From Cenococcum geophilum 1.58 (Eukaryota > Ascomycota > Dothideomycetes > Gloniales > Gloniaceae), in the NCBI GenBank assembly GCA_001692895.1, contig KV748176.1, positions 3,224,001-3,288,000 of the forward strand: a DNA stretch of 64,000 nt, written 5' to 3'. A program made the position numbers and the translations under genes. Below, piece after piece: positions 4,646 through 57,349 of this stretch (position 1 is its first letter; each line of letters opens with the position of its first letter). Below the pieces are notes generated by a model. The model had not been told where the DNA came from and made no database searches. It saw nothing but the letters and a program-made list of their open reading frames with translations.

Positions 4646-5243
4646 TATAACGGGGTTTTTATAAACACCCTAGTTTTAACCAAGCTAGCGTACTATAAAG
4701 GCTCAGTCAATAGAATAGGATTCTATTGATAGCTTGTAAACGAGAATTCCAAGATAAGGACTAGAAGAAGGTCGAGGAAAGGACACTATTACGGCACTAA
4801 TCGCGCATAACCTGGATAGGGCCTAGTTAGAGGGGTTCGCTTACGCCTTAGCGCAGTATATAGACGTGTCCTTTTCACGACCTTCTTTTGCTCCTTATCT
4901 TGATATCCAAGTCTATAGACATTACAATTATACAGGCTTACATACGTTCTTTACGGCGCTCGTGCCTTAATTGCCTCATCGCTATAACAGACACGTCTAT
5001 ATATATGGCGCCAAGGCTCGGCTCCGCCAAGCCCCTAACTAGGGTCTGTAACAGTGCCGTAACATATACCACCTACTATTTTAAGTAAAGTTTTATTGTT
5101 TTACTAAAATTAAAGTAACACATATATTTAAAAGGCGGTGTGTTATACTAAGGCTTACCTAGGCGTAATAGATATAACTTAGGTAAAGCTTTAATGTTCC
5201 TTTTAGTTAAAACTAAAGGTGTTAGTCAAAATCCCATTACCTA
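4646..5243 (-). mobile_element. TIR element (MITE family A), copy 1, carrying a nested insertion
   Basis: The ends are inverted repeats of the type TA-GGTAACGGGGTTTT...ACCCTAGTTTTAACC. The same unit occurs in the opposite orientation at 63474-63695. TA next to both termini fits a TA target duplication, as in mariner/pogo-type MITEs. The left terminus is slightly eroded. The interior includes a shared stretch with 'aaaggcggtgtgtt' and 'taaggcttacctaggcg'. This copy is about 370 bp longer than the other because a second element is inserted near its left end. No transposase is encoded. Confidence 0.75.
4693..5066. mobile_element. Nested inverted-repeat element inside MITE A
   Basis: The 222-bp copy at 63474-63695 runs uninterrupted where this copy has about 374 extra bases, so the insertion is shown by comparison. 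TA flanks both sides. Inside it, 37-bp arms at 4750-4786 and 4866-4902 are near-perfect inverted repeats (core agaaggtcg...aaaggacac). A second, weaker inverted pair relates the 'ttacggcact...tagacgtgtc' section near 4790-4870 to the reverse complement of about 4995-5060. It has no coding capacity, so it is a non-autonomous element. The open stretch at 4888-5088 is part of it and not a gene. Confidence 0.6.
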
Positions 5244-5720
5244 CATTATTTTTACTTAGCTTTAAATACTAAAATCTATTAAAATTATTATAGTAAGCGC
5301 TAAAAAAAAAGAAAACAGAAAACAGCTCTATAGCATCCTATTACCTCTAGTAGTTAGCGCAGCTACGTCTACACGGCCTTTTATAGGGGAAGTTTTAGTA
5401 TTTTTGCAGTTTAAGGGAAAGTTAATAAAACACGCTAACCATTAGACACGTCAGGAGGCCGTAATATAAATTTATATTTCACGCCTATAACCACGCGCGT
5501 TTATAAATATAAATAACAATTTAGTCTAGGTAAGGGGCAAGCAATTTAATTATTTTTGTAATAAAGAGTTATATAATATCTTAAAGGAGTCCGTAGAGTA
5601 TTACCTAACAATCAGTCTTAGATCACTTTTAGTCTTTAAATCTTTTAACGTCTTTAATCCTTTATTTACTATAAACACTCTTTCTCTACAATAGATTATT
5701 CTAATAACTTTCTTTTAGGA
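5244..5720. other. AT-rich intergenic sequence
   Basis: RIP-degraded sequence between MITE A and the next relic. It contains an A-run near 5304-5312 and nothing else I can identify. Confidence 0.5.
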
Positions 5721-15395: not shown

Positions 15396-16305
15396 TAAAA
15401 AATAATAAATTTTAATAAATTCTATAATAAGATATTATTTTAGCGCTCTAACGTAAGAGCGGGTACTAAAAGAAAATTAAAAAAGCTATAATTAGAGACT
15501 AAAATCCGGGCAAGAAGCTATTTTAGGCTCTAACTAATACGCTATAAAATAGTCGAACTCTAATTAGTAAACTAGCCGCTCGCTAGATATAAAACTAGTA
15601 GCTTACTTTACCTTACTCGTTTTTTAGCTAAGGGCATATTTAATTACTATTACTTAGCCATATAGGCTCTACTAGGTAGGCGCTCTTAAAAAGCCACCTA
15701 GGCCTACCTAGGCCCACCTAGTCGCGAACGGGCCACTAATATCGATATCCGCCTGGTAAATACTATCCGTTCGACGCCGCAGGTAAATTTAAGCAGATCG
15801 GTCATCTCGGTAGTTAAAAAGGAGGTTTCACCTAGCCAGGTAAAGGCGTTCGCGCTAACCGCAATTGCGCTTATAGTGGCGAGTTTTATTAGCAATTTAA
15901 GCCACCTAGGTAGGCGAATTCCACTAGTTAAGGGAGTAACCTATAATATTTTTAACCTATTCTTACCATCCTGTAATCTAATTCAACACCAACTATCTAG
16001 TGACGCTCCTTTCTTACTAAACAAACCCCTTTTACTAGGTGGAAAGCACCCCTGCCTTAACGTCTAGAAGAGGCGCTTATATCCTAAATACTAAGCCTAG
16101 GTAGAGTTAACCTAGCTAAAAAGTTATTAAATATACCCTAAGGCGCACAACTTGCATATAATATGCATACTATGCCGTTTACATTATCTCTAACAGAATT
16201 AAATATAAATATTATTAAGAATACTTTTAATTACTACAAACTATTATTTTATTAATCTTACTTTATTTATCTACCTTCAAATCCCATTAAAAGGGTATTA
16301 ATGCT
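15396..16305. other. AT-rich sequence with short cctaggtagg palindromic motifs
   Basis: Motifs of the type CCTAGGTAGGC or its complement occur near 15697-15725, 15899-15915 and 16096. They may be remains of a small inverted-repeat element. Two overlapping open stretches on opposite strands (15704-15895 minus and 15876-16067 plus) lack a recognisable family and look accidental. The last 100 bases are the upstream region of the MADS-box relic. Confidence 0.4.
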
Positions 16306-16900
16306 ATGCCTCGCCTAAGGAAACAATACCGCACGTCTTTACATAGGTCTTCAGACGCCAACAACCAAATATTCACAACCCGACGGGAAGGCATCTTTAA
16401 GAAAGCTTCTGTCCTTGCTTAGCTGGTGCCCGGAATAAGAGTTGCTATCTTTATAAAGAAAAACTAGGAAATCTTCACGTTTCAATCTAATAAGAACTTA
16501 ACTTCTTAGCCTCCCTCTATAGAAGAGATTATAAACACTATCCTTATTTACTATCTCTATACGCTTATATAGAGTAGCAAAGGGCAGGCAACCCAATTAA
16601 TAAATTTCCCTACTATTATTAAAGTACCGCTAAAGCACGCTTATAGGGGGATAAAACTCCCTTATCCAGCCGAAGCTCCCTAGAACTTCTTCTATTTCTA
16701 AGCCAGGTCTACTATAATCTAAATATTAGGGTTAAGAGCAAGCCTACTTACTTATCCTCTATCGGAAGCATTGATTTATTAAAATAGTTTTCATCGCCTT
16801 CTATTTACTATAATAGGATAGAGTTTATAGACCGCCATAGTAAAGTGTTGCCCCCTATTAGTAATTAGGTATTAAGGTCACCCAATGGCAACGATATAGG
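16306..16900 (+). pseudogene. MADS-box (SRF-type) transcription factor relic
   Basis: The ATG at 16306 starts MPRLRKQYRTSLHRSSDANN, then QIFTTRREGIFKKASVLA, and after a RIP-type stop LVPGIRVAIFIKKN and EIFTFQSNKN. This matches the SRF-type MADS-box order: 'F.KRR.GLFKKA.EL', then a central hydrophobic strand 'v.v.IF'. The basic residues of the helix (RREGIFKK) and the beta strand are visible. It would bind DNA as a dimer at CArG-like sites. The MADS domain lies at residues of about 20-75, as usual for an N-terminal MADS box. Downstream, PPSIEEIINTILIYYLYTL continues in frame, and coding-like sequence runs to about 16900. Stops are at Gln/Trp-type codons. Confidence 0.65.
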
Positions 16901-17439
16901 TAATCACAACTCTCCCGCTCCTCTAAGTAAGATTTTTTATACACCATATAAGAATCCCCATTAACGACCTTACTACTATAGTCAAAGCCTAAGCCGGAAC
17001 TCAACCAACCGTATAATTCTCCCTCCTCTTACAGCACCTATATTTGGCACTTTGCCTTTAAAGAGATTACCAGAATAATTTAAAGAATTTAGGTTATATT
17101 ATATATGACGCTTAGTGAATTATATATAAGGATAGGGATCCTTTATATTATTAGAATTGGGTACCTAGCCTTCTAAATATTTTTACTATAGCGCAAGCAA
17201 TTAAATATTTAATTCACTATTAAACTCAAATAAATAATAACCCTTATCCCCTAATTAAATCGCGAATAGTATATATAGCGCTTCTTCAATTTATAAAATA
17301 GAAGGCGCTAGCTAAAGTGACATTTCAGAAAGACGCTCTATTTCCATAGAAGGTGCCGGCTAAAGTGATATTTTAGAAAGACGCTCTATTTCTATTAAAA
17401 TAGTTATAGGTATATGCTAAAGCAAGGGCATCTCCTACT
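16901..17439. other. Degraded sequence with a short duplicated motif
   Basis: Two near-copies of a motif containing 'aggtgccggctaaagtga' and 'agaaagacgctctatttc' lie at about 17306-17345 and 17349-17390 (a direct repeat of about 42 bp). No gene is seen. Confidence 0.45.
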
Positions 17440-20400
17440 ATACACTCCCATTAAAACGGAGTTGCCTCTTTAAGAGTAATACGTCCTCTAATCTATTATA
17501 TAATCGTTTTCTCCCTAACCCAGACCTCCTAGGAAGCCTAGTATTGCTATCTATAGTAAATATACTCCTATATTGGTTTATAAAAGCCTTAATATCTTCT
17601 TTACTACCTATATAGCAAAGTCCATATCTTTTACATGCCTCTAAAAGATATTTAGGGTTATAAGACGTTATAATAGTAAGGTCAAAAGCTAGAAACTTTA
17701 CTATACTCTAGGATACCTTTTCGTAATATAGTATATGCCTAGTTAGAAATTCTCTAAAGCCTTCTAGCGCCTAAGTTGGCTCAAACACGATCTCTAATCT
17801 TTGAAAGTCACTATTCTTATTTAATTTAATTATAATAATCCGAAGGTCACTAGATATATCTACTTCAGTAATAAAGCCCAAATCCAGCTCCTTTTTATAC
17901 TCCTTAAGTTCTTTTAATTTTTAAAAACCTCGGCTAATAAGGTTATCTTTAAGTTATATATTATATTCGAGGCCTGCAATCTTTATCTTCGCCGCAGAAA
18001 ATATATGTTCTGCTTGGCCTTAATATATCGCCATGCTTTAATCGGCCCAGTTTTATAATTCACGTTGTTAACATTCGTGTTCAGTCTCTGCTATCTATTT
18101 TAACTGCTTTTATTAACACTTATACTCTTCTTCTAACAATTTAAGGACCTAAAGATGCTTAGATTGGGCTTATATTATCAGCTAACCCACCACCTCTTAA
18201 ACTGCTTTTTCCTTTTAAGACTTGGCTAACTCTAATACTTAACACAGTCTTTTATCTTCTTGCTGTTAACGCACTTACTCTACTAACTTAAAAACTTTTA
18301 TATACTTAGACCGGGCTTCTATTTTCAGCTAATCCACCACCTCTTAAACTGCTTTTTCCTTTTCAGACTTGGCTAGCTCTAATGCTTAACGCAGTCTTTC
18401 ATTTTCTTGCTATTGACGCAGTCTTTTATTTTCTAGCTATTTACGCACTTGCTCTAATAACTTAAGAGCTTTTAGATGCTTAGATTGGGCTTATATTTTC
18501 AGCTAATCTACTACCTCTTAAACTGCTTTTTCCTTCTTAGGCCTAGCTAATTGCAGTACATAACGTAAGTTATTATTTTCTTCCATAACTTATTTCGTCT
18601 CTATCTGTATTGCCTTTAAACATTAGGTTAGAATAGCAGTTTCACTCTTTAAAGCATTAAATGCTTTTATTAACCCTTCTATTTCAATTCTTGCCTTCTC
18701 TATCTTTCGTTAGAGCACTTTATAATCTCTTTTTTTCATTTATAAGCTGTTCCGCATTCCTTCTTAGGTGTCTTTCAATTTTTTTAAGCCGTTATTTAAC
18801 TCCAAGACTATAGCTATCTAGGCCTCCAGATTATGTTACAATTTCTTAATTTAGGTATCCTTCTTATCTTCTTCTCTAGAGCCCTATTAATATTTATTTT
18901 CTACTATTACGCTTTAAAGACATTCCTTCTTAGCTACGGCCGCATTAAGTGTCGACTACTATTACACCAACTGGGATTCCAGCCTCTTTTTGGAATTCTT
19001 AAATGACATACTTTAAGCTATTATCTCTTCTAGCTTATTACTAACTAGAGAGTACTCTTTCTTAAGATCTTCAATTTGGGATTTTGCCCTCGCCAATTAA
19101 TTCTCTATTATTATAGAAGTGGAAGCTATTAACTTCCTAGCAGTTTTTAAACTTATTTCACTATCTTCTAACTCTTTAATACGTGAATTTAATTGGCTTA
19201 TTTTAATTTGCAGTTCTTTAACTAAGTAGTAATAGGTATAGTCGTGCGCATTAGTAGGACTCTACATTAGTATAGTATTTTGGATTAATAGCGACCGAGT
19301 TTCTAAGGTAAAATATGCATCCTTCTCTTAATTAGTTAAGTTTATATATAAAAAAGGGGGCTGGGTATACCTTAAATGACTTAAATCCGAAAAAGGTTAT
19401 AAAGAAGTCACGTTTTATAAAAAAGGGTATAATATTGGCACCAGGATAAACCTTACTCCCATAAATGTATGGGATAAAAAGGCAATTATTATCCTTCCTA
19501 TAATTATCGTTAAAGGGCCTTCTATACCTTCTATTAGCGGGGAGGGATTTAGAACTAGTAAAGTATAGTAATTAAATGCAGTTATCCTGGGCTTCCGACT
19601 GCTTAAGAACTAAGGCAATAGCTATAACTTTTCGCTCATTCGTGGACTTTAATTAAGGGTTAGCTTTTTGCAATAGCTAAATAGCAAGTTCTCTTTTAGG
19701 ATCTTGCGACTTAAGCGCGAGAGCTATAGGAGTCCAAAAGCCTAAAGTAATAGCCAGATAGCTGAGGTTTTAATATAGAGCCGGACTTGGCTCCCTAACG
19801 GTAGGCTTTTCTTTTCTAATTTCTTTTCAGGGAGTAAATTAAGTCATATATCGGAAATTACGAAGGCAAAACGTCTATAACTATGCATAGTAAAGCCATC
19901 GGTCTTCTATAAATCCACGCTTTAAGCAACACTACTAGCTCATCTCTAAGAACGGTATAGTTAAGTTTTTAGGACAATAATAGCAACCTTTAAGGCTCTT
20001 ATAAATTGTTCCTTTTATTTTATTACCAATTAAATGCTTTAGTATAATGCAACAAGGTTTTAGGTATTTAAGGTTCTCAAAAAAGGTTCTTAATAAGGGA
20101 ATTAAACAATCTACTAAAGAAATGTTCTATAGAATAAGGTCTCTTATTAACTAGTCTAAAATAGTTAGGAAAATCTTCTTAAACTCCATTAGCGCGGTAA
20201 CACGATCTATATTGGCTTTTAAGACAGCTAGCGCAAACAGTTCCAGATTCTAAACGGTCTCTACATCCACTACTAATGGGGGTAAATCTATACCATTGCA
20301 GCTAATAATCTTCTTCCAATTTATAGAGATAGGGCGAAGTCCCTTAAGCAGTTCCTAGTTTATTTAGCTAGCTCTCTCTATAAGCAAGTAGAGAACGGCA

Positions 20401-21169
20401 TACCTCATCACACTTAAGCGTTAAGAATCTATATAACGCTCCGATCTAAATTGGTTCCCATAGGCCTGGCATTTCTACTAGGGCATTAAATGCTCTCGCA
20501 AAGTAAGAATTCTTAAAAAGTTGTCTTAGATCATTCGGCTTTAACCCATCTAATAGAGCCCACCATCTATTCTCTAATTTCGTATCATTCTTAAGATAAT
20601 AGTATCGTATTTTGCGAAACACTTTCCCGTCTAACGGTTTCTATTTATTTAAGTATTCTTTAATTATCCTCATAAGGACCGTTTATAGAAGATCTGCAAT
20701 AGATTCTTAGCTAAAGTAGTAAGACACTTAAGTAAACGGGCTCACCTTTGGAGAAAAGCCTCACTATCCACCACTGGTCATTATCGTCTAAAAATTCTTT
20801 AGCAGCTTTAATACGATATAAGCCTCTAAGGCAGTCCACGCTCCTTAGGTTAACAAACGGTATTAAGTTACCCTCCTAAAGTTAATAAAAGCGTTATTTA
20901 TTAAGGCCTAAAAAGGCTAGTAACGAGATAAGGGTCGCATTGTCTATAACAGCATTAATAAATTTTTCTTTCTCTAGCCTTTTATAACCTACTCTTTTAA
21001 ATACATTTCTAAGGCGGCGGACGTTCTTTTTGGATAGTAACCGATGTTTTTTACGTATAAGAGGATGGTCGAAATTAAGTGCGCCAAGTTTTATTTTCGC
21101 TATGCCTAGGTAGTTCCGTGCCCTAAGTATAGCTAGCTTAGAGTTGTCTATGGTTATAGGAAGAGCCAT
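17440..21169 (-). pseudogene. DUF3723-type protein relic with coiled-coil C-terminus
   Basis: The N-terminus is open for 91 codons (21169-20894): MALPITIDNSKLAILRARNY, then LGIAKIKLGALNFDHPLIRK and RLLSKKNVRRLRNVFKRVG. Further down the same strand come IPFVNLRSVDCLRG and DDNDQWWIVRLFSKGEPVYL. This succession matches what I know of the fungal DUF3723 family (Pfam PF12520, function unknown, enriched in accessory and Starship regions). The DUF part takes about 550 codons (to about 19500). Beyond it, 19270-17440 codes for a long coiled coil containing a repeated segment and ending near LLLKRQLRF. Whether the coiled coil is the C-terminus of one protein or a second gene cannot be settled. Stops are RIP-type. 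The start faces the PLP gene at 21435. Confidence 0.7.
18175..18545 (-). repeat. Internal coiled-coil-coding repeat of the DUF3723 relic
   Basis: Three copies of a segment encoding K/S-EKEKAV.EVVD.LKI.A-like heptads begin near 18181, 18328 and 18502 (spacing 147 and 174 bp). They share 'cacctcttaaactgcttttt' on the plus strand. The unequal spacing comes from an extra run of Q/R/E-rich heptads. This is an expansion of the coiled coil. Confidence 0.65.
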
Positions 21170-21434
21170 TACTTGTATACCGAGAGCCCAGCACTCCTAC
21201 TAATGTGGAAGACTTAAAGCTCTTTTATAAGAAACATTAGTTAGTACCGAATATTAAAACTAAAAATTTAATTTAGTATTTTAATTGTACTATCTTATAA
21301 ACTATAAAGCTGTATTAGGTGGTACGAAGCGGAATTAAATTTTTAGGAAACTGTAAATATTTAAATATATATATATAAGCAAATTTTTAGAAGATTCCCT
21401 AAGCTCCACTCCTCCGCCTTATCCGCTCTTATTA
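21170..21434. promoter_or_regulatory. Shared intergenic region of two divergent relic genes
   Basis: 265 bp separate the DUF3723-type start (21169, minus) and the patatin-like start (21435, plus). A single short interval must have held both promoters. It is now AT-rich with a 'tatatatatata' run near 21367. No specific operator is seen. Confidence 0.5.
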
Positions 21435-24400
21435 ATGGCGAAAATTCCTTAAATAACTGTCGATTTTAAAAGCGAAGGTGCTATTACTAAGCACCGACAA
21501 GCTTTTAAGTCCTTAATACTAAAAGAGAGCCAGCATCAGAGCCCATTATTTATTACGCTAGTTAGTAAAAAAACAAAGTCTGCTATTCTGTAACACCTAC
21601 TAGGAGATACTATAGGTGGAAATTTTCTAGCCGATGCGTATAATCAAATCTACCTTTAGGAAGACCCTAAAACCCGTAAAGATACCTTACTAATCCTTTT
21701 CATCAATTGCGAACTTCAAAACTATTCTTTATCACAGTTGCTTCTTTCCTATAGTAGTGGGGAGATAGTAACAAGAAAAATTTCTTAGTAGTAGCCTTTA
21801 AAATGTCGTAAAATACTTAGCTTATTATTATATAATCGAGTACTCTTACCTTTCTCCAATATAGTCTGCTATTTCGTTACAGATCTAGGCGGATTAAGGG
21901 AAGTGTCTAAGCTTATGGCTTAGCAAGCTGTTAAATCTCCAAGTTCCGATCTCTCCGTGCTCCCCCGCATTCTACTAGTATTTAACACATCCTCACTAAC
22001 CTTTAATGAAAATATTGCTAAATTAAAGTCCCTAGCTTTAATAACTAAAATAATGCAGAGCTTTAAGTAATATAGTAAAACTAAAGACGTAAATATAGAT
22101 CTAAAGGCTTATTTTTATAGTATCCGTATTCTTAAACTAAATTTGTCTATAAGCTTAGTAAAACGTTCGTGCGCGTTCTAAAAGCGAATTCTTTTTATAT
22201 TAGAAGAAGCACGCGTCTTACGCCAATCCACTTAAGTTAAATTCCGTTTTAAGCATTTTAAGGCTTTATTAAGCTTGGCTTTAGAGCACTTTAGCTCTAC
22301 TATTACCGCCCCGTTCTTATTTATCTAAGTAGTATAACCTTATAGCTTCTTAAACGAGGGGTTCTTAGCGTACCTTAGAGATCTTATTAAGCATATGCCG
22401 TCTTAGGCATAGCTATGGCACTTTATCGCCCTATTAGTAGTATTAGCGTTAATTCTATTAAGCTATCCCCCGGGTTCTTATTATATAACCCCCGCCCTAA
22501 ATCTAGCTAACTCACTAATGCTAATTATAGACTTTCTTCCTACTTTTATCTTCTTAAAGCATTTCTTAAACGCTTATATCTCTGCAATGTAAGACTATAC
22601 TATAAATACAAGTATCTATACAAAATTTTTATTAGCGGTTCTAGATAATTTCTAGTCTATGTTCCAAACACTCTAATTAAACTCTTTATTAACTACATCC
22701 CAGATTTACATGCAAAATATTACAAGGCTTTGGCCCCAAGTAGCAGAGTTTAGAAGCTATAAGTCTTGCTTCTATTATCTAATGCGAATGCCTAAAAAGG
22801 TATTAGACTGCAGTTATACACTCTGTAATATATATATTAAAATATATAGAAGACAATCATCCTTAATAAAATACAACTATTATCTTTCGTCTTATGTCCT
22901 CTATGCCTTACCTTACAAAGCGTCTAATTTTTAATTTGTGCCACCTAGTGCTAGTATCCATATTTTAAGCATAGATGGCGGAGGTATAAGGGAAGTTATA
23001 TCTCTTATCTTTCTAATATATATTAAGCAGACACTATCTAACTTTAGATATTCACTGCGAGAACATTTTAACCTTATCTATGGCACTTCTGCGGGTACGT
23101 AAAAAAGAAATATTACTATTAAGAACTTAAGTTAATCTGGTAATTAGGTAGAATAACTACTATAGGGATAAGTTTCTTAGGGTAGAACGCAGCCAAGTCA
23201 TTATAGAGGTTTAAGGATATAGCAAGCAAGACCTTCAAGCGGCGAAAATTTAGATCCACTTTACTTACTAGGTTATAAGAGATAATGCTAGGCTACGCCC
23301 AAGATGGCTAGTACAGCCTTACCGCCATCGAATTAGGCTTTAAGGCCGCTTTTAGATCCCACCTAAAGATGTTTAATCTACTAATAAACGATACTAGAGT
23401 TATAGTAATAACGACAACTGTCAAGGAGTCATAGCCTTGTTTGTTTTGCAATTATAATAGGGGTAAGCAACCTAAGGATATTAGTAAGCAAAGTACTTTC
23501 CCAATTTAATATAGTAGCGTCCTAATTATATAGGGTATAGTTTAATCCAGGCCAACTATTTACAGCATGATATATCTATTAGTGAAGCGTATATTTAATC
23601 TAGGGGATGCTTAGAATTAAGCTAATACATTTTAGGGTATGTTGTACTTCTGCCGCACCCTGGTTAGCTAATCTGTTATATATCCTATAATTTAATACTA
23701 ATTAGAAAGGTTCTTTAAACCCAAAGTAGTAAAAAACCTTAGCACTTTTTAGGATGGGGGCCTTTAAAATAATAATCCAATTGTTATTGCCTAATTGGAA
23801 AGTCTATTCCTATGGCCTAAAAAGGGTAAGCCTAACTTTACTCTCTTATTAGGAACCGGTATAACCTCTATACTAATAGCTGCTAGCACCTAATCCCTAA
23901 TCACAGATTAATTTTACCTAAGACTCTTTAAAAGCTTTATGCGGAGTCTAAACAGCGAGGAAGCTTAGAAGAGGTTTATTTATACTATCCCAGTACAGTA
24001 CCGCAACAGATATTATCGTCTTAATCTTTATCTCTAAGGGCCTGAACCTCCACTCAATGACCTATCTATGGTAGGAGAATTAAAAAGCCAAACTACGGAA
24101 TATATAAAATTAAGTTCTATAATTCCTACTATTATAGACTTAATATACGCCGCAATGTTCTACTTTGAGCTTAAATATCCCCCTTAGTATATTAACGGCC
24201 GTTATAAGTGCGTTAGTCATATATTTTGCCGACTTAATCTCCCTCCTAATGGGCGTTAATACTTATACTCTTAGCTTATTGCCATATTATTTTAGTTCCT
24301 TATTTATGGTCATCCAACGGCTTATATATTAAAGGTACTAAAGGGTTATCCCCCATTTAAATAACGTGTATAATTTGTGGTTGATACCTTAAGTGAAAGT

Positions 24401-25554
24401 ATTATAATCTCTATTAGAGGGATTACGAGCATGCCTAGGTTAATAAGCGGATTTCCTATATCTCTTAAAGATCTGATTAATTCACAGTAACTTTACGCTC
24501 TATTTAGCTGGGCAGATCACTTAATATTCAAAAAGCCTCTTCCTTCTATTCCAGCAAAGCGAAAAATAGATAGACTATAGTAATTTATTTATTCTGGTAA
24601 GGCAATTACTAGTTACTTTCTGTATAATATTTCGTGCGTATATTGGCAAAGCCTTAGCTACCAGGCAGCTAGAAGCGAAATTATCCTAGAAACTATATTA
24701 GAGCACAGCGGTAAGTATTCTACTTAATTTAGATATCCGGCTTCCCCTAGAGTTAAAGTTTAAGTTATTAGCATTTAAATTACAGGAATTAGTTTCTTAA
24801 AATTATCTAGAAGGCGCCAAACTAACCAGGCGCTTAACACCTAGCTAACTATACTTCCAGTCTAAAACGGTATTAAAATAACTCAATTTAAGAACAAGTT
24901 TCCTGTTTTCGGCCTATAGCCTACTTTAGTAGTTATTTATTAGCTCTTACTCTTATCAGTTATAACTTTAATTTAATTATTAACCTCTACTAGTCGCCTT
25001 TTATACTTATAACACACCTTATAATATACATATAATAAAGATATGCCTCTATTAACTCCTATAGTTGTTATATATAACACAATTGCCATTAAAAATCCTA
25101 AGTTAGTATTATTGCTACAAAGTCGTATTTGTAAAGTTGACCTAAGATTAGCCTTCATTAACGACCTAGGTAAGACCCACTAGAATTATCTGGCGCCTAA
25201 AATAGCGAAATATGTAATAATAAAACCATAATATGCTTTAAGCATAATAGGCTATAGCTAATAAAGAAGGTGAAGGCTTTCCAATATAATAGTGGAAAGG
25301 AATCCTACCTCATTAAGTAGGAGCCCAGTATAATTAAGTTTCGCCAACTTGTAGAGAGGTACTCTAGGGAGTTACTTAAAGATATAGCCAAGTTATATAA
25401 TCCTATAATTCTAAATAACGGATTATACCGCGACCCTTATAATATTATATTTTAGAAAGTAAACTAGTTTAACACCTGGGTTTTAGTTTCTAAGTTAGAA
25501 GGGGCAGGCAAATTAATTTATGATTATTGGATGGGAATTGGCGGTATTAGGTGA
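21435..25554 (+). pseudogene. Patatin-like phospholipase (PLP) relic
   Basis: The frame runs from the ATG at 21435 (MAKIP.ITVDFKSEGAITKH) to TGA at 25552-25554, ahead of which LEGAGKLIYDYWMGIGGIR is intact. Length is 4.1 kb, fitting a large fungal PLP of roughly 1,300 residues. The N-terminal third is a family-specific region (LLLYNRVLLPFSNIVCYFVTD). A Cys/His-rich RING-like segment follows at about 22755-22850 (KSCFYYLMRMPKKVLDCSYT, LCNIYIKI), with several Cys now Tyr. The patatin domain begins at 22950: ILSIDGGGIREV (DGGGIR at 22974-22991), the nucleophile elbow GTSAG at 23082-23096, and the catalytic Asp motif DGGL.NNNPIVIAQ at 23753. The ancestral enzyme would hydrolyse acyl lipids through a Ser-Asp dyad. 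Many RIP-type stops make it dead. It is divergent to the DUF3723 relic. Confidence 0.85.
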
Positions 25555-28458: not shown

Positions 28459-28625
28459 TGTCGGGAATGAGGCAAGCGGTCGTCACGTGTCGACGTGGCC
28501 CTAGCGTGGTAAGGAACCTTAAGTTCCTTACCCCTTTCCTTATTCCTATTAATCAATCAAGAACAGAACAATCATCATACTATCTACGAACCGTAGCTAC
28601 GTGATATCCCCTTATAAGTCTAACA
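28459..28625 (+). repeat. 5' LTR of the gag-only element
   Basis: 167 bp, TG...CA ends, preceded by gttta. It contains the stem-like pair 'aggaaccttaagttcctt'. It matches 30567-30733 except for about nine transitions. Confidence 0.9.
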
Positions 28626-28920
28626 CTAATTAGTGGTTAACTTTACTATTATACTATAGAGCAGCTAGGTATTCCACCAAGAAGAGACGAGCCACTGTAC
28701 CAGTGCTACTCGTGCTAAAGAAAGCTGTCTTTTGAGGTTAGAACTGGTCCTAAACCTTAAATAGAACTCTTCTACGAATCTAAGGATCTAAAGGCCAGAA
28801 CTAGTCCTGAGCCTTTCCAAGATTACGGATTCTTGCGTCCATTACGCAGAATAACACGCTTTACGAGTCTTCGCGATTTAAGGCCAGAACTGGTCCTGAG
28901 CCCCATAATCGCAAATATAC

Positions 28921-29837: not shown

Positions 29838-30140
29838 GGAGGTCCAAATGGAGGTCCTGGTGGAGATCCTCGTAGAGATTCTCGTAGAGGTCCTCGTGGA
29901 GATTCTCGTAGAGGTCCTCATAGAGATCCTTGTAGAGATTCTCGTAGAGGTCCTTGTGGAGGTCCTCGTAGAGGTCCTTATAGAGGTCCTTATAGAGGTC
30001 CTTATAGAGGTCCTTGTAGAGGTCCTTATAGAGGTCCTCATGGAGGTCCTCGTGGAGGTCCTTATAGAGGTCCTCGTAGAGGTTCTCGTAGAGGTCCTTA
30101 TAGAGGTCCTCGCAGAGGTTCTCATAAAGGTCCTTGTAGA
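29838..30140 (+). repeat. 12-bp minisatellite coding for an Arg/Gly/Pro repeat
   Basis: About 25 tandem units of 'ggtcctcgtaga' and variants. On the plus strand, in the gag frame, they read as a four-residue GP(Y/R/C/H)R repeat, resembling RGG-type RNA-binding tails. Because 12 is a multiple of three, all six frames stay open, which explains the overlapping long open stretches on both strands. Those are not separate genes. Confidence 0.85.
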
Positions 30141-30566
30141 GCATTAAGAACTCTTTAGGATTCGATAGATTAGTAGCTAAGACAACCCAGCAGATGCGAT
30201 GATAAAGGCAATTTAAGAGCATTCCTATTGGTTAACTGTCGTTCTTATTTGCTTAAGCTAGCCGTATCTAGTTACGCTCCGCTAGCTCCACAACCCTATT
30301 TTAACGACATAGTTTCCTAGGGCATACTACCTGCCAAATTCCTACCATACTTTGCCGACCCTAACTTCTACTAGCTAATTAGGATTTTCCATGCCCGGTA
30401 TAGAAAATCGCTATTAGCTCGCTTACTACTAGCGCCTTAGCAACTCCCTTTGTATTCTCGTTAAACCTAACGTCCTTCTTTATCTTCTTCTCCTTAGCTT
30501 TGTATCTTTATATAGTGGCAATCTATAAGTGTATATAGATGGCAACCATAAAAGAAGAGTTGCTAG

Positions 30567-30733
30567 TGTTGGGAATGAGGCAAGCGGTCGTTACGTGTCG
30601 ACGTGGCCCTAGCGTGGTGAGGAACCTTAAGTTCCTCACCCCTTTCCTTATTCCTATTAATCAATCAAGAACAGAACAATTATTATACTATCTACGAACC
30701 GTAGCTACGTGATATCCCCTTGTGAGTCCAACA
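30567..30733 (+). repeat. 3' LTR of the gag-only element
   Basis: 167 bp, TGTTGGG...CCAACA, followed by the target duplication gttta at 30734-30738 and then by the interrupted 58-bp tandem repeat. Confidence 0.9.
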
Positions 30734-30779
30734 GTTTAACCTAACTTTAATATTACCAATTAGCACGGAAGAATACTTA

Positions 30780-33430
30780 TAATAGCGGACGTTTAGACTA
30801 ATAGACTTGCGGTTAAGTATTAGGGTTTATTATAAATTAACAATATACTATACCTAAGTCTCCTACCTACTAACTCTAAGCCATTAAGCCTAGCGTCTTT
30901 AAACCTAGCGCTATTAGAGACAAACTTAAAATCAAAAATTAGAGAATATCATTAAGCCGTTTAAAACATATTCGGATTATCGGCGACCTAAAGCTTTAGT
31001 AGTAAATAACAACTTTAAGGAGAAAGAGGAGATAGAATAAGTTATCTTAGATAATAAAATAGAGATAAATTCCTTAGATAATAAAGATGACGTCGAAATA
31101 AAAAAGGTTAGGGTTTAGAATCTAACTAAAAAACACTACTCCCTAGACGAGAATGGGGTAGCACTTTAGCTTAAAGGGGCAGTGCAAATGTCATAAGATT
31201 AAGAAAAAGGGCTTAGCGAGGTACTAAAAGAGATAAGAAAAGTATATTATAAAGCCTTTCCCTTTGTTAGACGGTGGTGGGATATAGGCATTTTATTAAC
31301 TTATAAAAAAGCAATAAATAAACTGGATACAGAAATTAAGAAATTTAACAGTAATTATAATTCTAAGCTAGTTTAAGCCATCTCTTTTAAGTTTAATATA
31401 GCCTACCTAGAAGCTAAAAAGGCCGCAATAAAGAATAAAACATTGGATGTGGATAATAAGGATATAGTAAAAGAGTTTTAACGGAAAGCCTAGGATAAGT
31501 TTACGGAATTAAAAAAGAAATATAAGCGACCAGACCGTTATTAGTATTTCCCTTAAAAAATAATACTAGACAATATTTAAGCGTTTAAAAACCAGCTTAA
31601 TAAAATTAATACTCTTAAGGAAGGAACAGTCATAAGAGAGAAAAGTATTAAAAAACTTACGGAGGGGTCAGTTATGTTCATTAAGTCGCTAAAAAAAGTA
31701 GGCATTAATTATAAGTTAATAACGCCAAGCCACATTAAGATTAAAATTAAGCAGTTAATTAATGAATCGCTAAAGGCTACTACTGCCTATTTAGCCTGTT
31801 TAGAGGCCCTAAGAGGCCTAATACTTAAGTAAATGGCGGTATGGAACGATATTAGACTATAAGTACAAGAATTTTTTAACTTAGCCCGCTAAAAGAAGTT
31901 TGTAGCAAGAGATATATCTCTAAAAAAAGCAATTAAAGCAGCTAAACAGAAAAATATAGAGCTTATAAAAGTCAATAAAAAGCTTAACCTAGTTTTAACT
32001 AATTACGAAATACCAATTCAATCTATAAAAGAAATTCTTAGTATCTTAGAGATACCTAATAAGGACACCCAAGAATAAAAAAGAGATTAACTTATACTTA
32101 GGATTAAAGCGATACTGTTATTAGAAGGTATTAATAGTGCAAGCACTTAGATTCCTAGAAAGAAGCTAGTACTCTCTATAGGCGCTACGGCTCGAGAGAG
32201 CTTAAGGCTGCTAAACTCCATAGAGGGCGATTTAGCCAAACAATTGAGCAGCGCCAGCGGTGCTGGGCCGTCTATAAAGATTGGCTCTGCTGCTACTAAT
32301 ATAACAAGCTCTGCTAAACCCTCTATAGGTATTAACCCCAGAGTAAGCAATGCTAAAGCAAGCTCTACTAAACCACCTATAAAGAGTAGCTCCCGTACTA
32401 AAGCAGTAAGTTCAGCTAAAGTCGGCAGTTTTACTAATGAAAGTAGTGCTAATAAAACACTATTTGTTTCTAAAGAAGAAAGCTTTACCAAATTGCCTAT
32501 AAAGAGCGATGCTACTGCTAAAAGGGTAGGGTTTGCTAAAACATCCAAACCTAACGGAAAGAAAGCTAAAAGCGTCCTACCTAGACAGAACGCCCTAGAG
32601 CCCGCAGCTACACTCTATATCCTATTAGCTACAGACCCTATCGCTCTAAAATATATACTAGAGGCATTTAAATCCGTAGAGTCTAATATAGACCTTAATA
32701 ATCTACACTCTTACTAAACGACGATTGCATTGAGATGCCTTTATATAAGGATGGAAGGACAGAATTTAGCATTCTAGAGGCTACGAGACCTTACGAAAAC
32801 AAACAGTAAAGTCGCTTTATTATCAATGCGGGCATAGAAAACCATCCATTTTACTAAGTAATTAGTAGCTACTAACTTGCGCCAAGAGGCGCTGATAAGC
32901 TTTAGAGCATAGAAGAGAAACACTCTAAGTTTAATAAGAAATGGTATAAGGTATATATAAATGACGGGAATGGTAAAAGAAAACGAATCAATATTATTAA
33001 GAAGCTTGGCCTATATGTACAGGTCCTATAATCCTGTAATAATAGCAAGCGAAAGCTAGATACCTATATTAGAACTGAGGTCTATAAGGAAAAGACTAAA
33101 AACCCTTACGCTAACGAAATGCCGCTCGTTAACTGGTTAACTAAATTAGAGATAGTCGAAATAAGTAATAAGCGATGGGGAGAGGCTTAGGTAGAGATTT
33201 TAACGCAAGCTTATATAAGGAAGAGGATAGTATTTAAGAAATTAAGAATATGCCGGCTGCATCCTAATACGGGGAAGCCGCTATTAGAGGAAGACAGAAT
33301 AAATAAGCCATAGCTATTCCTAGATGCAGAAGGGTCTCTAAGTAGTTTAGACGGCGGCGGGCAATAAGCTAGCGAAGAAATTAATATGTCTAGTGTTAAA
33401 GTTAATAGCTCCAACTCCGATTCCGATTCT
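30780..33430 (+). pseudogene. Lys-rich coiled-coil protein relic with Ser/Ala/Thr-rich centre
   Basis: A single plus-strand frame family remains coherent for about 2.6 kb. From 31010 it reads charged helical sequence (VRRWWDIGILLTYKKAINKL, KKAIKAAKQKNIELIKVNKK). At 32244-32717 a 157-codon stretch is open, with a low-complexity Ser/Ala/Lys/Thr region (SSAKPSIGINPRVSNAKASS) and then LYILLATDPIALKYILEAF. Downstream pieces include INAGIENHPFYQVISSYQL-like and NPYANEMPL.NWLTKLEI sequence and a basic segment. The reverse open stretch at 32147-32548 is the shadow of the Ser/Ala-rich part. The family is not recognised. The GC-richer codons of 32240-32700 show less RIP than the rest. Confidence 0.45.
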
Positions 33431-43375: not shown

Positions 43376-43399
43376 GTGTAGGAATAATCCTTATATACC

Positions 43400-43547
43400 C
43401 ATTGCAGAGCATTAACCTCGTCTCTTCGTTGTCGCTGCTTTCTAGTGGAATGTTAATGGCGGTATTAGCCTCATATCCCCATTCCAGATCATCAAAGCTC
43501 GTCTCTAAGTTGCCGCTGCTTGCTGATGGCATGTTAGTAGCGGTGTA
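43400..43547 (-). repeat. 81-bp coding tandem repeat, left part (interrupted by Copia element)
   Basis: Units start at 43400 and 43480 ('cattgcagagcat' or 'cattccagatcat'), and the array resumes at 46142 after the LTR element. The minus strand encodes a 27-residue repeat of the type NMPLASGDNMETSFDDLEWG followed by YEANTAI. There are about five units in total counting both sides. RIP is mild. Confidence 0.8.
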
Positions 43548-43742
43548 TATTGGAATTACAAGGTCATGGGGTCACAGCGGAGGTATCTTGAGGGTCTAAT
43601 TGATGATAGAGATGACGCAGACGATGAATATTGATTGATTCGTGATGCAGTAGATGCGGTTAATGTCTATATAGATTGCATGCGGACTTCGTCCTCGCAA
43701 TGTGTCCAGGGCTTAGTCAGCATCTCTCGCTTAATTCTGACA
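43548..43742 (-). repeat. 3' LTR of the Copia fossil
   Basis: 195 bp. It reads TGTCAGAATTAAGCG...TTCCAA(C/T)A on the minus strand, next to a GGGGGAG polypurine tract. An 8-bp insertion relative to the other LTR is visible near 43567. Confidence 0.85.
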
Positions 43743-45954: not shown

Positions 45955-46141
45955 TGTTGGAATTACAAGGTCACAGCGGAGGTATCTTGAGGGTCTAATT
46001 GATGATAGAGATGACGCAGACGATGAATATTGATTGATTCGTGATGCAGTAGATGCGGTTGATGTCTATATAGATTGCATGCGGACTTCGTCCTCGCAAT
46101 GTGTCCAGAGCTTAGTCAGCATCTCTCGCTTAATTCTGACA
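45955..46141 (-). repeat. 5' LTR of the Copia fossil
   Basis: 187 bp, TGTCAG...CCAACA on the minus strand, followed on the plus strand by the target duplication gtgta (46142-46146). Confidence 0.85.
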
Positions 46142-46400
46142 GTGTAACCCTCATATACCCATTGCAGAGCATCAAACCTCGTCTCCTCGCTGTCGTTGCT
46201 TTCTAGCGGAATGTTAATGGCGGTATTAGCCTCGTATCCCCATTCCAGATCATCAAAGCTCGTCTCCATGTTATCGCCGCTTGCTAGTGGCATGTTGGTA
46301 GTGGTGCGACCCTCATATGCCCATCGCAGAGCAGTAAAACTTATTTCTCGCTGTCGCTACTTGCTGGCGAAATTTGCGCAAGGTTACCGCGGGTATTAAA
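46142..46400 (-). repeat. 81-bp coding tandem repeat, right part
   Basis: Units begin at 46160, 46241 and 46322 with an exact 81-bp period. The minus-strand frame is open (46293-46142, continuing into the LTR by chance) and encodes 27-residue repeats with conserved ET.FD.L.W.YE. A repeat-protein gene on the minus strand was probably split by the Copia insertion. Function unknown. Confidence 0.8.
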
Positions 46401-47764
46401 AGGCGGGGGGAAATCTTATAACAGGTGTTCTTAACCAGGGGGGATTATAAGGGATTCGCACACTAGCTTAAAGGCTTAAGGATATTGTCCAACTAATTAT
46501 AGAGAAGATATTCCATGGCCTATAATAAATTAGAGATTCTGCTATTTAAAAGCATAGCTCTACTCTTATATATCTACATACTCTCTACCTAACAACCTAT
46601 AACGGCTACAAGTGCATCTAATCCCCCCCTATTATAAATTCCCCGATTTAATAGGTAATTCTAATTTATATTCATTCCTTAGTAAAACACGCCTCCTAAT
46701 AAATTATTTACTTTAAGTCCGGTAGGGCCTAAGCAGGCGCATAATTCGATTGGCTAAGGAATCCCCGGTACACTTAATACGTTTCCCTCTATAATACTAG
46801 TTAGCGACCTTAAAATATAGACTAGAAAGAGGACTAACGGATAGGTAATTAGTCCCGCCTCTTAACCTAGTATAATAACTGTCCACTTACGCCTGGGATA
46901 AAGCCTGGCTCTAGCGTTAGGACATAACTCCTTAGTTAGCTTTAATCGCTAAACGTAATCCACTGCGCTGCCGGACCTACGTCTTAGATACTTATTAAAG
47001 CAGCAGAGTAGGTAATAGAACGGACCTTTTTATAGAACCCTAGGTATACCTTTAGATATAAGGGCCGCTTAAGCGTAGGAGTTTTTATATTCTAAATTAG
47101 CTAAGCGGAATAAACTAAAGCAGGTTTAAATAGTTGTAGTAAGCTATCGCAAATTCGTATACTAAGCTTATTCGCTTTTGCAGATTCCACTTTATCCTTA
47201 ATTTTTAAGGTTATAAAAATTAAGACTGCCGCCTTAAGCTTAGGACTATTATTTGGCAAGCGGGCCTACCTAGATTTTTTAGTTTTTTTAACATTTTTAC
47301 ACTTTTAGAGACTTACATATTATTGCTAATTAATTCTAGAAGTAGAAGTAGGAACCTATAACCACCTAAAGGAACTTTTAGATTATTAAACTTCCCCCTA
47401 GCTACAACCTAATTTGTTATATTTTCCCGTACCTCTTCCCTATTAGCCCTAGTAGCATTACAGATAAGCCTAGTTAGCATAGTATAGTTTAGTAGTAGTT
47501 AATATAACTAGTAATAAAACAGCATTAAGAATCTCTAGCGGATTCTGTTAATAATAACATTCTTCGCCAATAGGACGATAGCATTATATCGCGCACTTAA
47601 GAGACGGCTAATGTCAGCGTTTAATTTTTCTTTAGTTTTAGTTACTTAGAAGAGATAAGTTAAATCCTTAGTCTATTCTAAGTAGTTGGCTTTAATACTA
47701 TTAGGAATATAAAGCTACTCCTCCTTTATATTTAGTAAGCACTAAAGGTTAATATTTAGTAAGA
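46401..47764 (-). pseudogene. Unrecognised degraded relic, possibly the 5' part of the repeat protein gene
   Basis: Coding-like patches appear on the minus strand (VYRGFLSQSNYAPA.ALPDLK near 46740; KAAVLIFITLKIKDKVESAK near 47230), with RIP-type stops. They lie upstream, in minus orientation, of the 27-residue repeat array, so they may be the N-terminal part of the same gene. No domain is recognised. Confidence 0.3.
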
Positions 47765-48030
47765 GGGCTTTGTCTAGCAAAGGCTCTATAACTAATGACT
47801 TGCTTTAAGGAGTGCTCAATACTAAAGAGTCGTTTAGTAAAGGGCTTTAGGCATTAAACAAAGGCTCTATAACTAGTGACTTGCTTTAAGGAGTGCTTAA
47901 TACTAAGGAGCCGTCTAGTAAAGGACTTTAGGTATTAGATAAAGACTCTATAACTAGTAAATCGCTTAGAGAAATGCTTAACGTTAAGTATTTATCTAAG
48001 ACTAGATACCTTAAGGCTTGCTTAGCTCTT
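47765..48030 (+). repeat. Second 81-bp tandem repeat array
   Basis: 'aggctctata' recurs at 47781, 47862 and (RIP variant) 47943, an exact 81-bp period with about three units. The plus strand reads a 27-residue repeat (NKGSITSDLL.GVLNTKEPSS). Its sequence is unrelated to the 81-bp array at 43.4-46.4 kb. It ends about 20 bases before the Gypsy 5' LTR. Confidence 0.75.
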
Positions 48031-48051
48031 AGACATAGTATCTAGGCTAAT

Positions 48052-48266
48052 TATAAGGGATATTATTGCGGACACCTCGGGTTGCCCTTAGGACAACCCC
48101 CGGACGCCCCTTAAATAGTCGCCGGTTACGTGCTGGAGGCACATGCCCGTAGTATATAGTCTCCACGATCCTAGAGGCCTTACCTCCTTAAGGATTCGTC
48201 TCTTTCACTAATCTATCCTATTCCAATCGTGTCTTTATAGCCCCCTATCTACAAGATCCCCTTACA
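48052..48266 (+). repeat. 5' LTR of the Gypsy fossil
   Basis: 215 bp, T(G/A)TAAGGGATATTATTG...CCCCTTACA, preceded by ctaat. It contains the direct/inverted phrase 'ttgcccttaggacaaccc'. Confidence 0.92.
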
Positions 48267-51200
48267 TTTAAATCCTTCCTACTCTTTTTTAGAAGGGTAG
48301 TCGGCTTTAAGGACTAGATTGTTTATTTACATCTTTTATTAATAACCACTATCCTCCCTTAAAAATCTCGCGATAACCTAAACGGAAACTCTACGGATAC
48401 CTTATGGAAAGCCGTCGCGTAAAGGTAGGAAGGTCCCTCTAATAGCGAGAAATTGCGACAATATAACCCTCTAGGCAAGACGGCCGAACGAGCCCTAATA
48501 CCCAGATGCTCCAGGAGCTTAAAGACTCTCACATACCTACAGTTACCACTAAGGAAAACGCAGATACTCTCTATAACAGTTATAACACTACCAGAAAGCA
48601 ACCGGAACCCCTCTTGCCCCACCTAAGCCAATTAGAAGATTAAGCGCCAGAGGCGACTTTAAGATCTTCCCCTAAGCTAGAAATGCTAGAGGAATATACT
48701 AACGCGTCCGACTAGGGAACTAACTAGAACCCTCCCGGAAGACCACCGGCCTATAATTAGTATAGTGGCGGTGCATAGACTGCTTACAAGCTAAGCGGGC
48801 CTACCCCTTTAGGTAATCTAAGCTAATCACTAACTTAGGACCCGAGCCTCGTTAGGAAGCCTATACTAGCTACTAGTACTAATACTACCTCTATAGCAGG
48901 AGCCTCCCCAGGCCTAAATTTAAAAGGTTAAGAGCCCTATACCAATCTCCTTTAAGATAGATATTAGGAAGCTGTCGCAAGGCTCTTAAAAGCTATGCGG
49001 GAGGAAGCTACTAATAAATATATTAGAACCCTTTAAGGGCAAATTTAGATCTAGTAGGGTCTAATCTAAGCTAGGCAAATTCTTTTATAACCTAGTTAAG
49101 GCTAAGGGCTTTCTAGGAGCTACCTAATACCTACCTAAAAAGGTATAGAAGACTTAGAGAGTTATCTACGCTATAAACAGAAAAAGGATATAGACTAACT
49201 AGCTAAGGCCTCTAGTAGTTTAGAACTCCGCCATAGACCTAACGCCTAACAGTTAGACAATTAGGTTTATAAGGTAAACAACTTCTTTAAAATGCTAATA
49301 ATACAAGATAATACCAAAGAGCGTATATGCTAGATTATTAGCAAGATTAAAGACCGATCGCTAAACTAGATTATACTTAATTAGCTTAATAAAGAGCAAA
49401 TTACTACATAGTTATAGCTATAAACCTTCCTAAAGAAATAGACTTAAGATCCATATATTATATAATATAATAATACAAAGCTATTTTGGAATAGGATATA
49501 GCTAGACCGCTATAACTTCCGCTAGTTTATAAACTTTATAGAAACTTATACTTAATAGATAAATCTAGAGCCCTTTAAAAACAAGAACGGTAGCATCTAT
49601 AAGAAGGAGAAGATTGGGTTTATCTAGGCTAGAATTAAGCTAGCAATTCGTAATAAAATAAAGTGCGTGGGAGCCCTATTATAGATCACTATATATGCGG
49701 ATTTCGAACGAGCAGTTCTAAACGCTAAAGACGCGGTAAGAAACCAGACCTCTTTTAGTAGGAAGCTAGGGGGTTACTAGAAGCGCGGGCACTCTAATAG
49801 TAATATAGGGCAGACCCAACCTTTAAAGAAGCCGTTCTTAAAGAAAACTTTAAAAGGGTTAAAGTTAGGAACCTTAAATAATAGAAAAGACTCCTAGGGC
49901 TAACCCGATACCCGTTTAGTACCTTTATAGAAATACTCTAAAAAGTTAAGAGAAAACTCCAGAGGTAGATCTTATTAGAAAAACAAGTAGAGTAATAACC
50001 GCACTAATAATCTAAAAAAAGAAAAGCTCTAGTTATAGACCTCTCCTAGCTATAACTAGGGCAAGATATAGAAGGAGAGACTCTCCATATTGCTATTAAG
50101 CTGGAAATAACACTCCCTATAGGTAAGGTATAATAGTTCTAAGCACTATATAACAGCGGCGCTGAAATTAATCTTATATAATATAATTTAGTAAAAGAGC
50201 ATAAACTTATCCTATTGTAAAGGTAGCAGAAACCTATTATAGGCTTTCTAAATAAGCATTAAATCAAGCTATATAGTGCCTATAAGCTTATAGTATTAGT
50301 GGCCGATATATACAACCGCACTAAGGCGGTCGGCCCGCAACCCTTCTAGGTGGCTGACTTCGTAGGTTACGACCTTATCCTTAAATACCCTTAGCTTGCG
50401 AAAGCAGATCTTAAGATACGCTTTAAAACAGGAGCCTTTAAATAGTGGAATAATAAAGATTTGGAAGGGCGTATATTACTAATAAGCCTAAAGGATATTC
50501 TAGAGAATATAGCCCCAGGTAAAATAGTATACACTCTACACCTAAAGGAGTATCAAATCCAACCCCTATTTAATAGCAAGATAGGTATAGAGCTTAGTAT
50601 AGGTAACAACCCCTCTATAATAGAGACCCTATGGGGAACTACTGGATAGGTCGCGGAGACATTATAGGGAGGCGGCGATCTTAAGGATCTTATAAGATAC
50701 TTTAACCGCCATAAGTTACTCTGGCTTAAGCAATATACGGAGAGTATACTATAGTACCTTAAACGCTACGTTAAGGAGTTCCCTACCCTTTATTAGCTAC
50801 CGTATAAAACGATTTAACGTATGGTGGCAACTATATATAAGCAACCACTATAGCGTATAATACTGCCCGCGAGCATTCTAAGGGAGCTCCGGGACCTACC
50901 TAATAATAATATAGAGGATAAACGCGACCCTAATTTGTTAAATATTCTAGTAGGCCTAAGGGACTTACTAAGGGTATTTTCGGGTAGGAGAGCTAAAGTC
51001 CTACTACAGAACTTAGAGTATAATTACGTAATTAATTTAGAAGAAGGCAAATAACTACTAAACTTTCCTATCTATAACCTCTCGCGTAAAGAGCTTAAGA
51101 TCCTATAGGAGTACCTTAATAGCTTACTAGAAAAGGGATGGATCCGGCCTAGTAAGTTACCGTTAGGCGCGCCAATCCTCTTCGTCCCAAAACTAGATAG

Positions 51201-54200: not shown

Positions 54201-54399
54201 GGGCGAGCGGTACAAAGTTAAAGCTATACTATGCCATAAGTCTATTAAGAACAAGCTTCAATTTAAAGTTAAATAGCTAGGCTAGCCCGCTAAGGACTCT
54301 ATATAGGAACCAGAGGATCACCTTAATTATTACAAAGATATTCTAAAAGAATATTAGGACTAAGGTCCACAATCTATAAATCGCAAAAAGCACTCTAAT

Positions 54400-56740: not shown

Positions 56741-56755
56741 AGAAGGGGGGGGCAA

Positions 56756-56970
56756 TGTAAGGGATATTATTGCGGATACCTTAGGTTGCCCTTAGGACAA
56801 CCCCCGGACGCCCCTTGGATAGTCGCCGGTTACATGCCGGAGGCACGTGCCTATAGTATATAGTCTCCACAATTCTAGAGGCCTTACCTCCTTAAGGATT
56901 TGTCTCTCTTACCAATCTATCCTGTTCCAATCGTGTCCTTATAGCCCCCTGTTTACAAGATCCCCTCACA
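56756..56970 (+). repeat. 3' LTR of the Gypsy fossil
   Basis: 215 bp, TGTAAGGGATATTATTG...CCCCTCACA, followed by ctaat at 56971-56975 and preceded by a 9-base G-run. Confidence 0.92.
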
Positions 56971-56975
56971 CTAAT

Positions 56976-57349
56976 AAAGTAATAAGACTTTAAAACTAAT
57001 AGACGCATTAGCAAATTTACATTAAAGAAGACCTAGCTAGTTACCTCTTTATCTATAAGAGCTTTATTAAGTAATAAAGACCTAAACCGCTGGAATCCAG
57101 GCTTACTAATATCAGCGCCCATTATTAAGGCGCCGTAGGTATAAGTACAAAAAGGTTATTAGAGATGTCTGGGGAAGCCTATACCATTTAGGCTATGCCA
57201 AGGCGCCTATTCGTGCCTATAAAGTAGGCGCCTTAGTATAGCCTAATATCTACCAACTAATTCCTAGAACGTAATGGACGTATACGCTTCCTACACAATA
57301 GGACTAGAAATATAGCAGTGCTAGCATCTAAAAGATTTGCGAGATCGGA
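56976..57349. other. Degraded sequence with an inverted short motif
   Basis: A phrase 'gccaaggcgcctattcgtgcc' in short form and its inverted relative 'gtaggcgccttagtatagcc' lie at about 57196-57242. They may form a hairpin. There is no gene. Confidence 0.4.

Follow-up and report, generated by a model that had tools for sequence, protein, structure and literature searches.

Background

Genes for DUF3723 proteins and for patatin-like phospholipases (PLP) were reportedly described by Gluck-Thaler et al. in 2022 as accessory genes of Starships, the giant transposons of fungi. Here we present two gene relics, one of the DUF3723 family and one most likely of the PLP family, that lie back to back in Cenococcum geophilum 1.58, within a stretch of 64,000 nucleotides (GenBank assembly GCA_001692895.1, contig KV748176.1, positions 3,224,001 to 3,288,000 of the forward strand) that we call the window and number from its first letter. 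Both genes appear dead, and their death is well explained by repeat-induced point mutation (RIP).

The published picture, as far as it can be drawn from the parts of the cited papers that were available to us, is that the first gene of a Starship is a DUF3435 captain and that direct repeats are frequent at its flanks (PMC12257634). DUF3723, PLP, ferric reductase (FRE) and NLR genes are named as accessory genes (PMC12506042, PMC10175614), in agreement with what a first-pass annotation of the window, made from the letters alone, had said of the first two families, and DUF3723 has even been termed characteristic of Starships (PMC11623301). The reported sizes run from 27 to 393 kb (PMC10175614), so that the window could lie inside a Starship. 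RIP-mutated Starship copies (Limos, in Fusarium) and a RIP-mutated captain (that of Frontier) have been published, with RIP-type transitions in Starship genes as we see here; a near relative was aligned in those cases, whereas the present locus is read without one (PMC12257634). Both families are also known from other settings: the SORBUS cluster of Penicillium roqueforti includes a DUF3723 gene with reverse transcriptases nearby (PMC9200314), and patatin has been linked, as a cell-death domain, to fungal NLRs (PMC9815663).

The nearest published case is "Icarus" of Pyrenophora tritici-repentis, a 294-kb putative Starship without a captain, for which isolate D308 shows both DUF3723 and phospholipase genes (PMC9594970; the domain name reads DUF3273 in one section and DUF3723 in the discussion). 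Our locus is like Icarus in combining DUF3723 with a phospholipase while no captain is seen, and Icarus has many class I element genes; its ends, moreover, were seen to be inverted, and another isolate showed a gap. We met no description of a head-to-head order of the two genes in the available text of that paper. More generally, the locus recalls Starship accessory genes by the same two families and by a repeat-rich block with relics of other host-type genes, and it differs from published Starships in that no captain, direct repeats or ends are seen and that the genes are dead.

Two divergent gene relics

The DUF3723 gene lies on the minus strand, where Pfam PF12520 matches in three successive pieces that together span profile positions 2-508 of 508 (Table 1), each of them above the Pfam gathering score of 22 bits. 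The first-pass annotation had recognised the right family and spoken of a DUF3723-like N-terminus only; it is in fact the whole domain that is present. The joined exons, which begin with an ATG at 21169, read as a single frame of 561 codons that contains 19 in-frame stops (11 TAG, 7 TAA and 1 TGA) and, once introns are allowed for, no frame-shifting indel. Both intron-like gaps are of the GT...AG type with a CTAA-type site inside. The first is flanked by profile positions 85 and 86, which stand in different frames; around the second the profile matches overlap (positions 179-185), and the scan offers there an alternative donor at 20413, with which the frame would not be restored. Such loosely defined candidate introns occur at a background of 1.78 per kb on the minus strand, and this frequency, together with the second donor for intron 2, makes each intron a weak argument when taken alone; jointly they are a stronger one, because both restore the frame exactly where the profile is continuous.

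Beyond the domain, a K/E/L-rich frame extends, still open, as far as about 17437. It is probably part of the same gene and holds three in-frame repeats at 18092-18582, with a spacing of 147 and 174 nt. We assume that a third intron near 19340-19390 joined the domain to this tail; the intron scan gave no candidate there under its rule. Compared with the PDB by sequence, the exon 3 region has no match up to E 10, and the same exon, with its stops read through and predicted from the single sequence, has a mean pLDDT (predicted local distance difference test) of 34.7. To our knowledge, no activity has been established for DUF3723.

Patatin-like phospholipases carry the motifs DGGGxR, GxSxG and DG[GA], in this order. 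The plus-strand relic has all three, in the order by which we assign membership: DGGGIR and GTSAG share one frame (22974-23096), and DGG, with a following NNNP, stands at 23753. The set, which the first-pass annotation had already pointed out, is found a single time in the window; of 200 dinucleotide-preserving shuffles, 0 contain its first part, the pattern having been composed after the sequence had been seen. Exon 1 forms a single frame without frame-shifting indel, in which 18 stops (10 TAA, 8 TAG, no TGA) interrupt 554 codons counted over 21435-23096. A comparison with the PDB aligned the first half of the relic at its catalytic motif with patatin-17 (1oxw, E 0.3) and the second half (within 23696-24880) likewise with CapV (8zr9, E 0.31), neither match being significant alone. 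The relic thus shares DGGGxR and GxSxG with patatin-17, and DGG with a following NNP with CapV; it differs from both in being dead and in its long N-terminal region without match. Motif order and catalytic-residue alignments together make a patatin-like enzyme likely, with GTSAG and DGG as the predicted motifs of the catalytic serine and aspartate. The Pfam profile Patatin (PF01734) gives E 0.21 (12.2 bits) in a 3000-aa frame and E 0.0021 (18.7 bits) for a 91-aa piece (22830-23102) that was picked afterwards; given such scores, under the gathering score, in a relic that is split by stops and changes frame, we call the gene patatin-like and do not file it as a PF01734 member.

At GTSAG the candidate intron has a strong donor (GTACGT, at 23095), and the relic changes frame again further on. 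The scan offers another candidate intron at 23463-23514 or 23517, and a segment near 23664-23707 looks intron-like by eye but does not satisfy the rule of the scan. The pair had been delimited at 25554; the patatin-like reading can be followed to about 24880, and 25040-25554 is without assignment.

As had been noticed from the sequence, the two genes stand back to back, the DUF3723 gene running from 21169 on the minus strand and the patatin-like gene from 21435 on the plus strand, with a start-to-start gap of 265 bp. A search for relatives gave 3 pattern matches in viral_contigs and 26 in genome_contigs, 0 confirmed in either, as expected for a fungal family in collections of prokaryotes and viruses. 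We think it probable that we are dealing with a dead divergent accessory pair, most likely that of a RIP-active filamentous ascomycete, made of a DUF3723 gene that probably had a long coiled-coil-like tail and of a patatin-like phospholipase gene, both killed by RIP.

Table 1. Positions, in the window, of the parts of the gene pair and of the retrotransposon in the same block
Feature	Position	Strand	Description
DUF3723 piece 1	20983-20738	minus	PF12520 profile 2-85, E 2e-14, 53.6 bits
DUF3723 piece 2	20685-20386	minus	PF12520 profile 86-185, E 8.9e-25, 87.8 bits
DUF3723 piece 3	20357-19386	minus	PF12520 profile 179-508, E 3.7e-52, 178.1 bits
DUF3723 domain relic	19386-21169	minus	exons 21169-20746, 20693-20404, 20354-19386
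DUF3723 intron 1	20694-20745	minus	52 nt, GTGAGC...GCTAAG...TTGCAG; putatively spliced
DUF3723 intron 2	20355-20403	minus	49 nt, GTATGC...GCTAAAT...CTAG; putatively spliced
Likely DUF3723 C-terminal tail	17437-19340	minus	K/E/L-rich frame, coiled-coil-like by eye
Divergent intergenic stretch	21170-21434		265 bp between the start codons
Patatin-like exon 1	21435-23094	plus	N-terminal region of about 500 residues, then DGGGIR and GTSAG
Candidate intron at GTSAG	23095-23147	plus	53 nt, GTACGT...TTAG; putative; acceptor 23151 also possible
Rest of patatin-like relic	23148-24880	plus	FXDGGLXNNNP at about 23750; end set by eye
RIP-mutated Ty3/gypsy chromovirus	48054-56970	plus	long terminal repeats 48054-48266 and 56758-56970, 90% alike

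RIP and the probable death of both genes

A RIP signature, CpA to TpA, runs through the whole 64 kb, with observed/expected ratios of 1.37 for TpA, 0.62 for CpA, 0.45 for TpG and 0.94 for CpG in the window, and a composite RIP index above zero in all 32 two-kb steps (range 0.33 to 1.39). The six pairs of repeat copies that were compared differ by 84 substitutions, of which 75 are transitions; 34 of these have a strict CpA or TpG context and another 14 show it in one copy, so that 48 of 75 have it in at least one. The excess of TpA, the depletion of CpA and TpG, and the predominance of transitions between repeat copies, by which we recognise RIP, are thus all present. At the gene pair the index is 0.70-0.86, not above its surroundings, the maximum of 1.39 falling in the chromovirus; as the pair's index is not higher than that of its neighbours, it does not point to a history of the pair's own.

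In the two relics, 36 of the 37 stops counted are TAA or TAG. Their density is 3.4% in the DUF3723 frame (19/561) and 3.2% in patatin-like exon 1 (18/554), against 8.4% in the six-frame window, that is, under half of the background, which is what one expects when only former Q and W codons could become stops. We consider the killing of both genes by RIP well supported by this signature and by the many stops in both, and the first-pass annotation had already called them possibly RIP-killed. RIP may have reached them because the genes existed in several copies, or it may have spread from the neighbouring repeats. The functional phospholipase probably cleaved membrane lipids, as its family suggests, perhaps in non-self recognition or cell death.

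Other relics and repeats in the window

The Pfam scan, which served also as the search for a captain, took in 73 translations, which amount to 52.3 kb read in six frames (1-47300 and 58700-63690) and 8.6 kb read on the plus strand alone (48200-56800), with 47301-48199, 56801-58699 and 63691-64000 (3.1 kb) outside it. Besides DUF3723, it recognised the chromovirus of Table 1, with RVT_1 at 1e-26, RT_RNaseH at 1.3e-18 (overlapped by an RT_RNaseH_2 match up to E 1) and SH3_Tf2-1 at 3.4e-11, and with Integrase_H2C2 (1.2e-4) and Chromo (0.0013), both under their cut-off. This element is part of the compartment and not of the gene pair. We rejected the idea that the Chromo domain near 54.3 kb is the CHROMO gene that the Frontier Starship is reported to have at its far end (PMC11857905, in its available part), as it stands between the long terminal repeats (LTRs), after reverse transcriptase (RT) and integrase, in the proper order.

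The minus strand has a copia-type gag at about 45.1-45.8 kb (E 1.4e-4, zinc knuckle 5.7e-4, both under cut-off; Retrotran_gag_3 also matches it up to E 1). The minus-strand gag frame stands between 43385-43742 and 45957-46306, two places that share two repeat segments in swapped order, and the RIP index falls to its minimum in the window, 0.33, at 44-46 kb. Elsewhere, an LTR-like direct pair (28459-28651 and 30567-30755, 90.7% alike, 2.1 kb apart) encloses, at 29851-30141, a tandem array of 24 copies of a 12-nt unit (GAGGTCCTCGTA, 81% matches), which is open from stop to stop in several frames (two minus-strand frames of 150 and 117 aa and a plus-strand frame of 117 aa); compared over 28459-28640 and 30567-30745, the pair differs by 9 substitutions, all transitions and 8 of them strictly at CpA or TpG. 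The longest open frame of the window, 188 codons at 32151-32717, is part of a K-rich, gag-like looking stretch (31002-32719, plus) whose plus frames match nothing in Pfam at E 1 or below.

Two relics of transcription factors may also be present. About 900 bp past the end of the DUF3723 tail, a MADS-box-like relic (16300-16566, plus) has an SRF-TF match at about 16.35-16.48 kb (E 0.0023, under its cut-off), and of the 15 matches that it has in the PDB up to E 10, 14 are MADS proteins (the best at E 0.35), so that a MADS-type factor probably lay near the pair. At 61884-62233 (plus), two weak C2H2 fingers in neighbouring frames (Pfam 0.017 near 62.0 kb, and 0.14 about 130 bp upstream) are followed by a motif that looks, by eye, like Zn2Cys6. 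From the 0.017 finger onward, 87 PDB matches were obtained up to E 1, and the best 60 of these 87 are zinc-finger proteins, at E-values such as 6.9e-10 for whole chains, which sum repeated fingers, and 0.0071 and 0.028 for short one-finger chains; this is likely the relic of a zinc-finger transcription factor. An Acetyltransf_10 match near 34.6 kb (E 0.016) was dismissed, being at chance level over 73 translations and named cysteine dioxygenase (E 0.064) by the PDB comparison instead; matches to Msg2_C, Pilin_GH and Myc_N (up to E 1) were taken as chance. The window gave 0 matches to Rfam at gathering scores and 0 with ARAGORN.

Finally, we looked at one candidate for element ends, an inverted pair at 5067-5249 and 63649-63468 (83.6% alike), and rejected it as the giant terminal inverted repeats of a 58.6-kb element. 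Its right copy lies inside a transposon-like unit of about 400 bp (63348-63749) with 50-nt inverted ends of its own, of which 5067-5249 is a partial second copy in opposite orientation, so that the two are most likely copies of a small transposon; no target duplication is evident by eye in the flanks, where no systematic test was made. The target motif of Voyager, which covers one Starship type only (PMC10128009, in the part available), has no match in the window with up to 2 mismatches.

Origin of the pair

Several observations weigh against our interpretation and should be set out together. On the side of the genes, both Patatin scores lie under the curated cut-off of 27.7 bits; on the side of their death, 27 of the 75 transitions that separate repeat copies lack any CpA or TpG context (a raw count, not set against chance), and TAA and TAG are favoured as stops in all frames of the window, a background that makes the type of stop alone prove little. 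As to the link with Starships, the three profiles that the first-pass annotation had proposed to look for fared differently in the window: DUF3723 is found, Patatin stays below its cut-off, and the DUF3435 captain appears in 0 of the 73 translations. Ferric reductase or NLR domains are likewise in 0 of 73, so that among the accessory families DUF3723 is found and PLP likely, and no element ends were found in the 64-kb window. In the literature, Gaeumannomyces Starships are described, in the available text, as lacking DUF3723, FRE and PLP (PMC12134995), which makes these families a frequent but not a required mark of Starships, and in Verticillium dahliae the transposable elements in Starship regions are less RIPped than those elsewhere (PMC12289983, in part).

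That the pair belongs to a true dead Starship is not proved by anything in the window, and we would put it at somewhat less than an even chance. The pair would then have arrived as Starship-type accessory genes in a captain-led insertion, followed by RIP and by the invasion of LTR retrotransposons, the captain end lying beyond the window or in its unscanned part, or the captain being lost. Such a history agrees with the published lists of accessory genes, with the captain-less precedent of Icarus, with the RIP-mutated Starships and captain already on record, with a size range that would accommodate the window and with the other host-type gene relics in the same block. It is opposed by the captain not being seen in the 73 translations, since the same scans detected a degraded RT (1e-26) and the degraded DUF3723 domain (3.7e-52), and a comparably decayed captain would probably have shown up in the scanned part; by the lack of ends, the inverted pair looking like a small repeat; and by the lack of a Voyager motif, as far as this one type goes. 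The pair may instead consist of resident genes from multicopy accessory families in an AT-rich, repeat-rich compartment, reached by RIP or by RIP leakage and never moved by a captain, a history that we also hold to be possible, if not quite at even odds. The RIP index, no stronger at the pair than around it and peaking in the chromovirus, fits resident genes, as do the unseen captain and the LTR elements and small inverted repeats of the block, yet this history leaves unexplained why two Starship-linked families should be adjacent. That we are misled by chance resemblances in AT-rich noise is hardly credible: the patatin profile scores are individually weak, as they would be by chance, yet the E-values and exon structure of DUF3723 already refute such an explanation for that gene, and both the shuffles for the first patatin motif and a stop density under half of the background in both frames speak against it.

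What stands of the first-pass annotation is therefore the two families, their divergent order, RIP with its stops and, as far as was scanned, the absence of a recognisable captain, and what is not supported is the membership in a giant element; the wording supported by our results is that these are RIP-killed genes of Starship-associated families. One could also imagine, and we find this very improbable, that divergent pairs of a DUF3723 and a patatin-like gene recur as a two-gene module whose control region is shared (here the 265 bp). A killer phospholipase would then travel with giant elements, together with a second protein acting as regulator or partner, as a device for incompatibility or element retention, and our pair would be the fossil of such a module.

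Conclusion

By itself, the pair is one more fossil in a known picture. The gene content and the exon structure of accessory genes are still readable in a heavily RIPped block, and such fossils might help to count old insertions of giant elements that captain-based searches miss.

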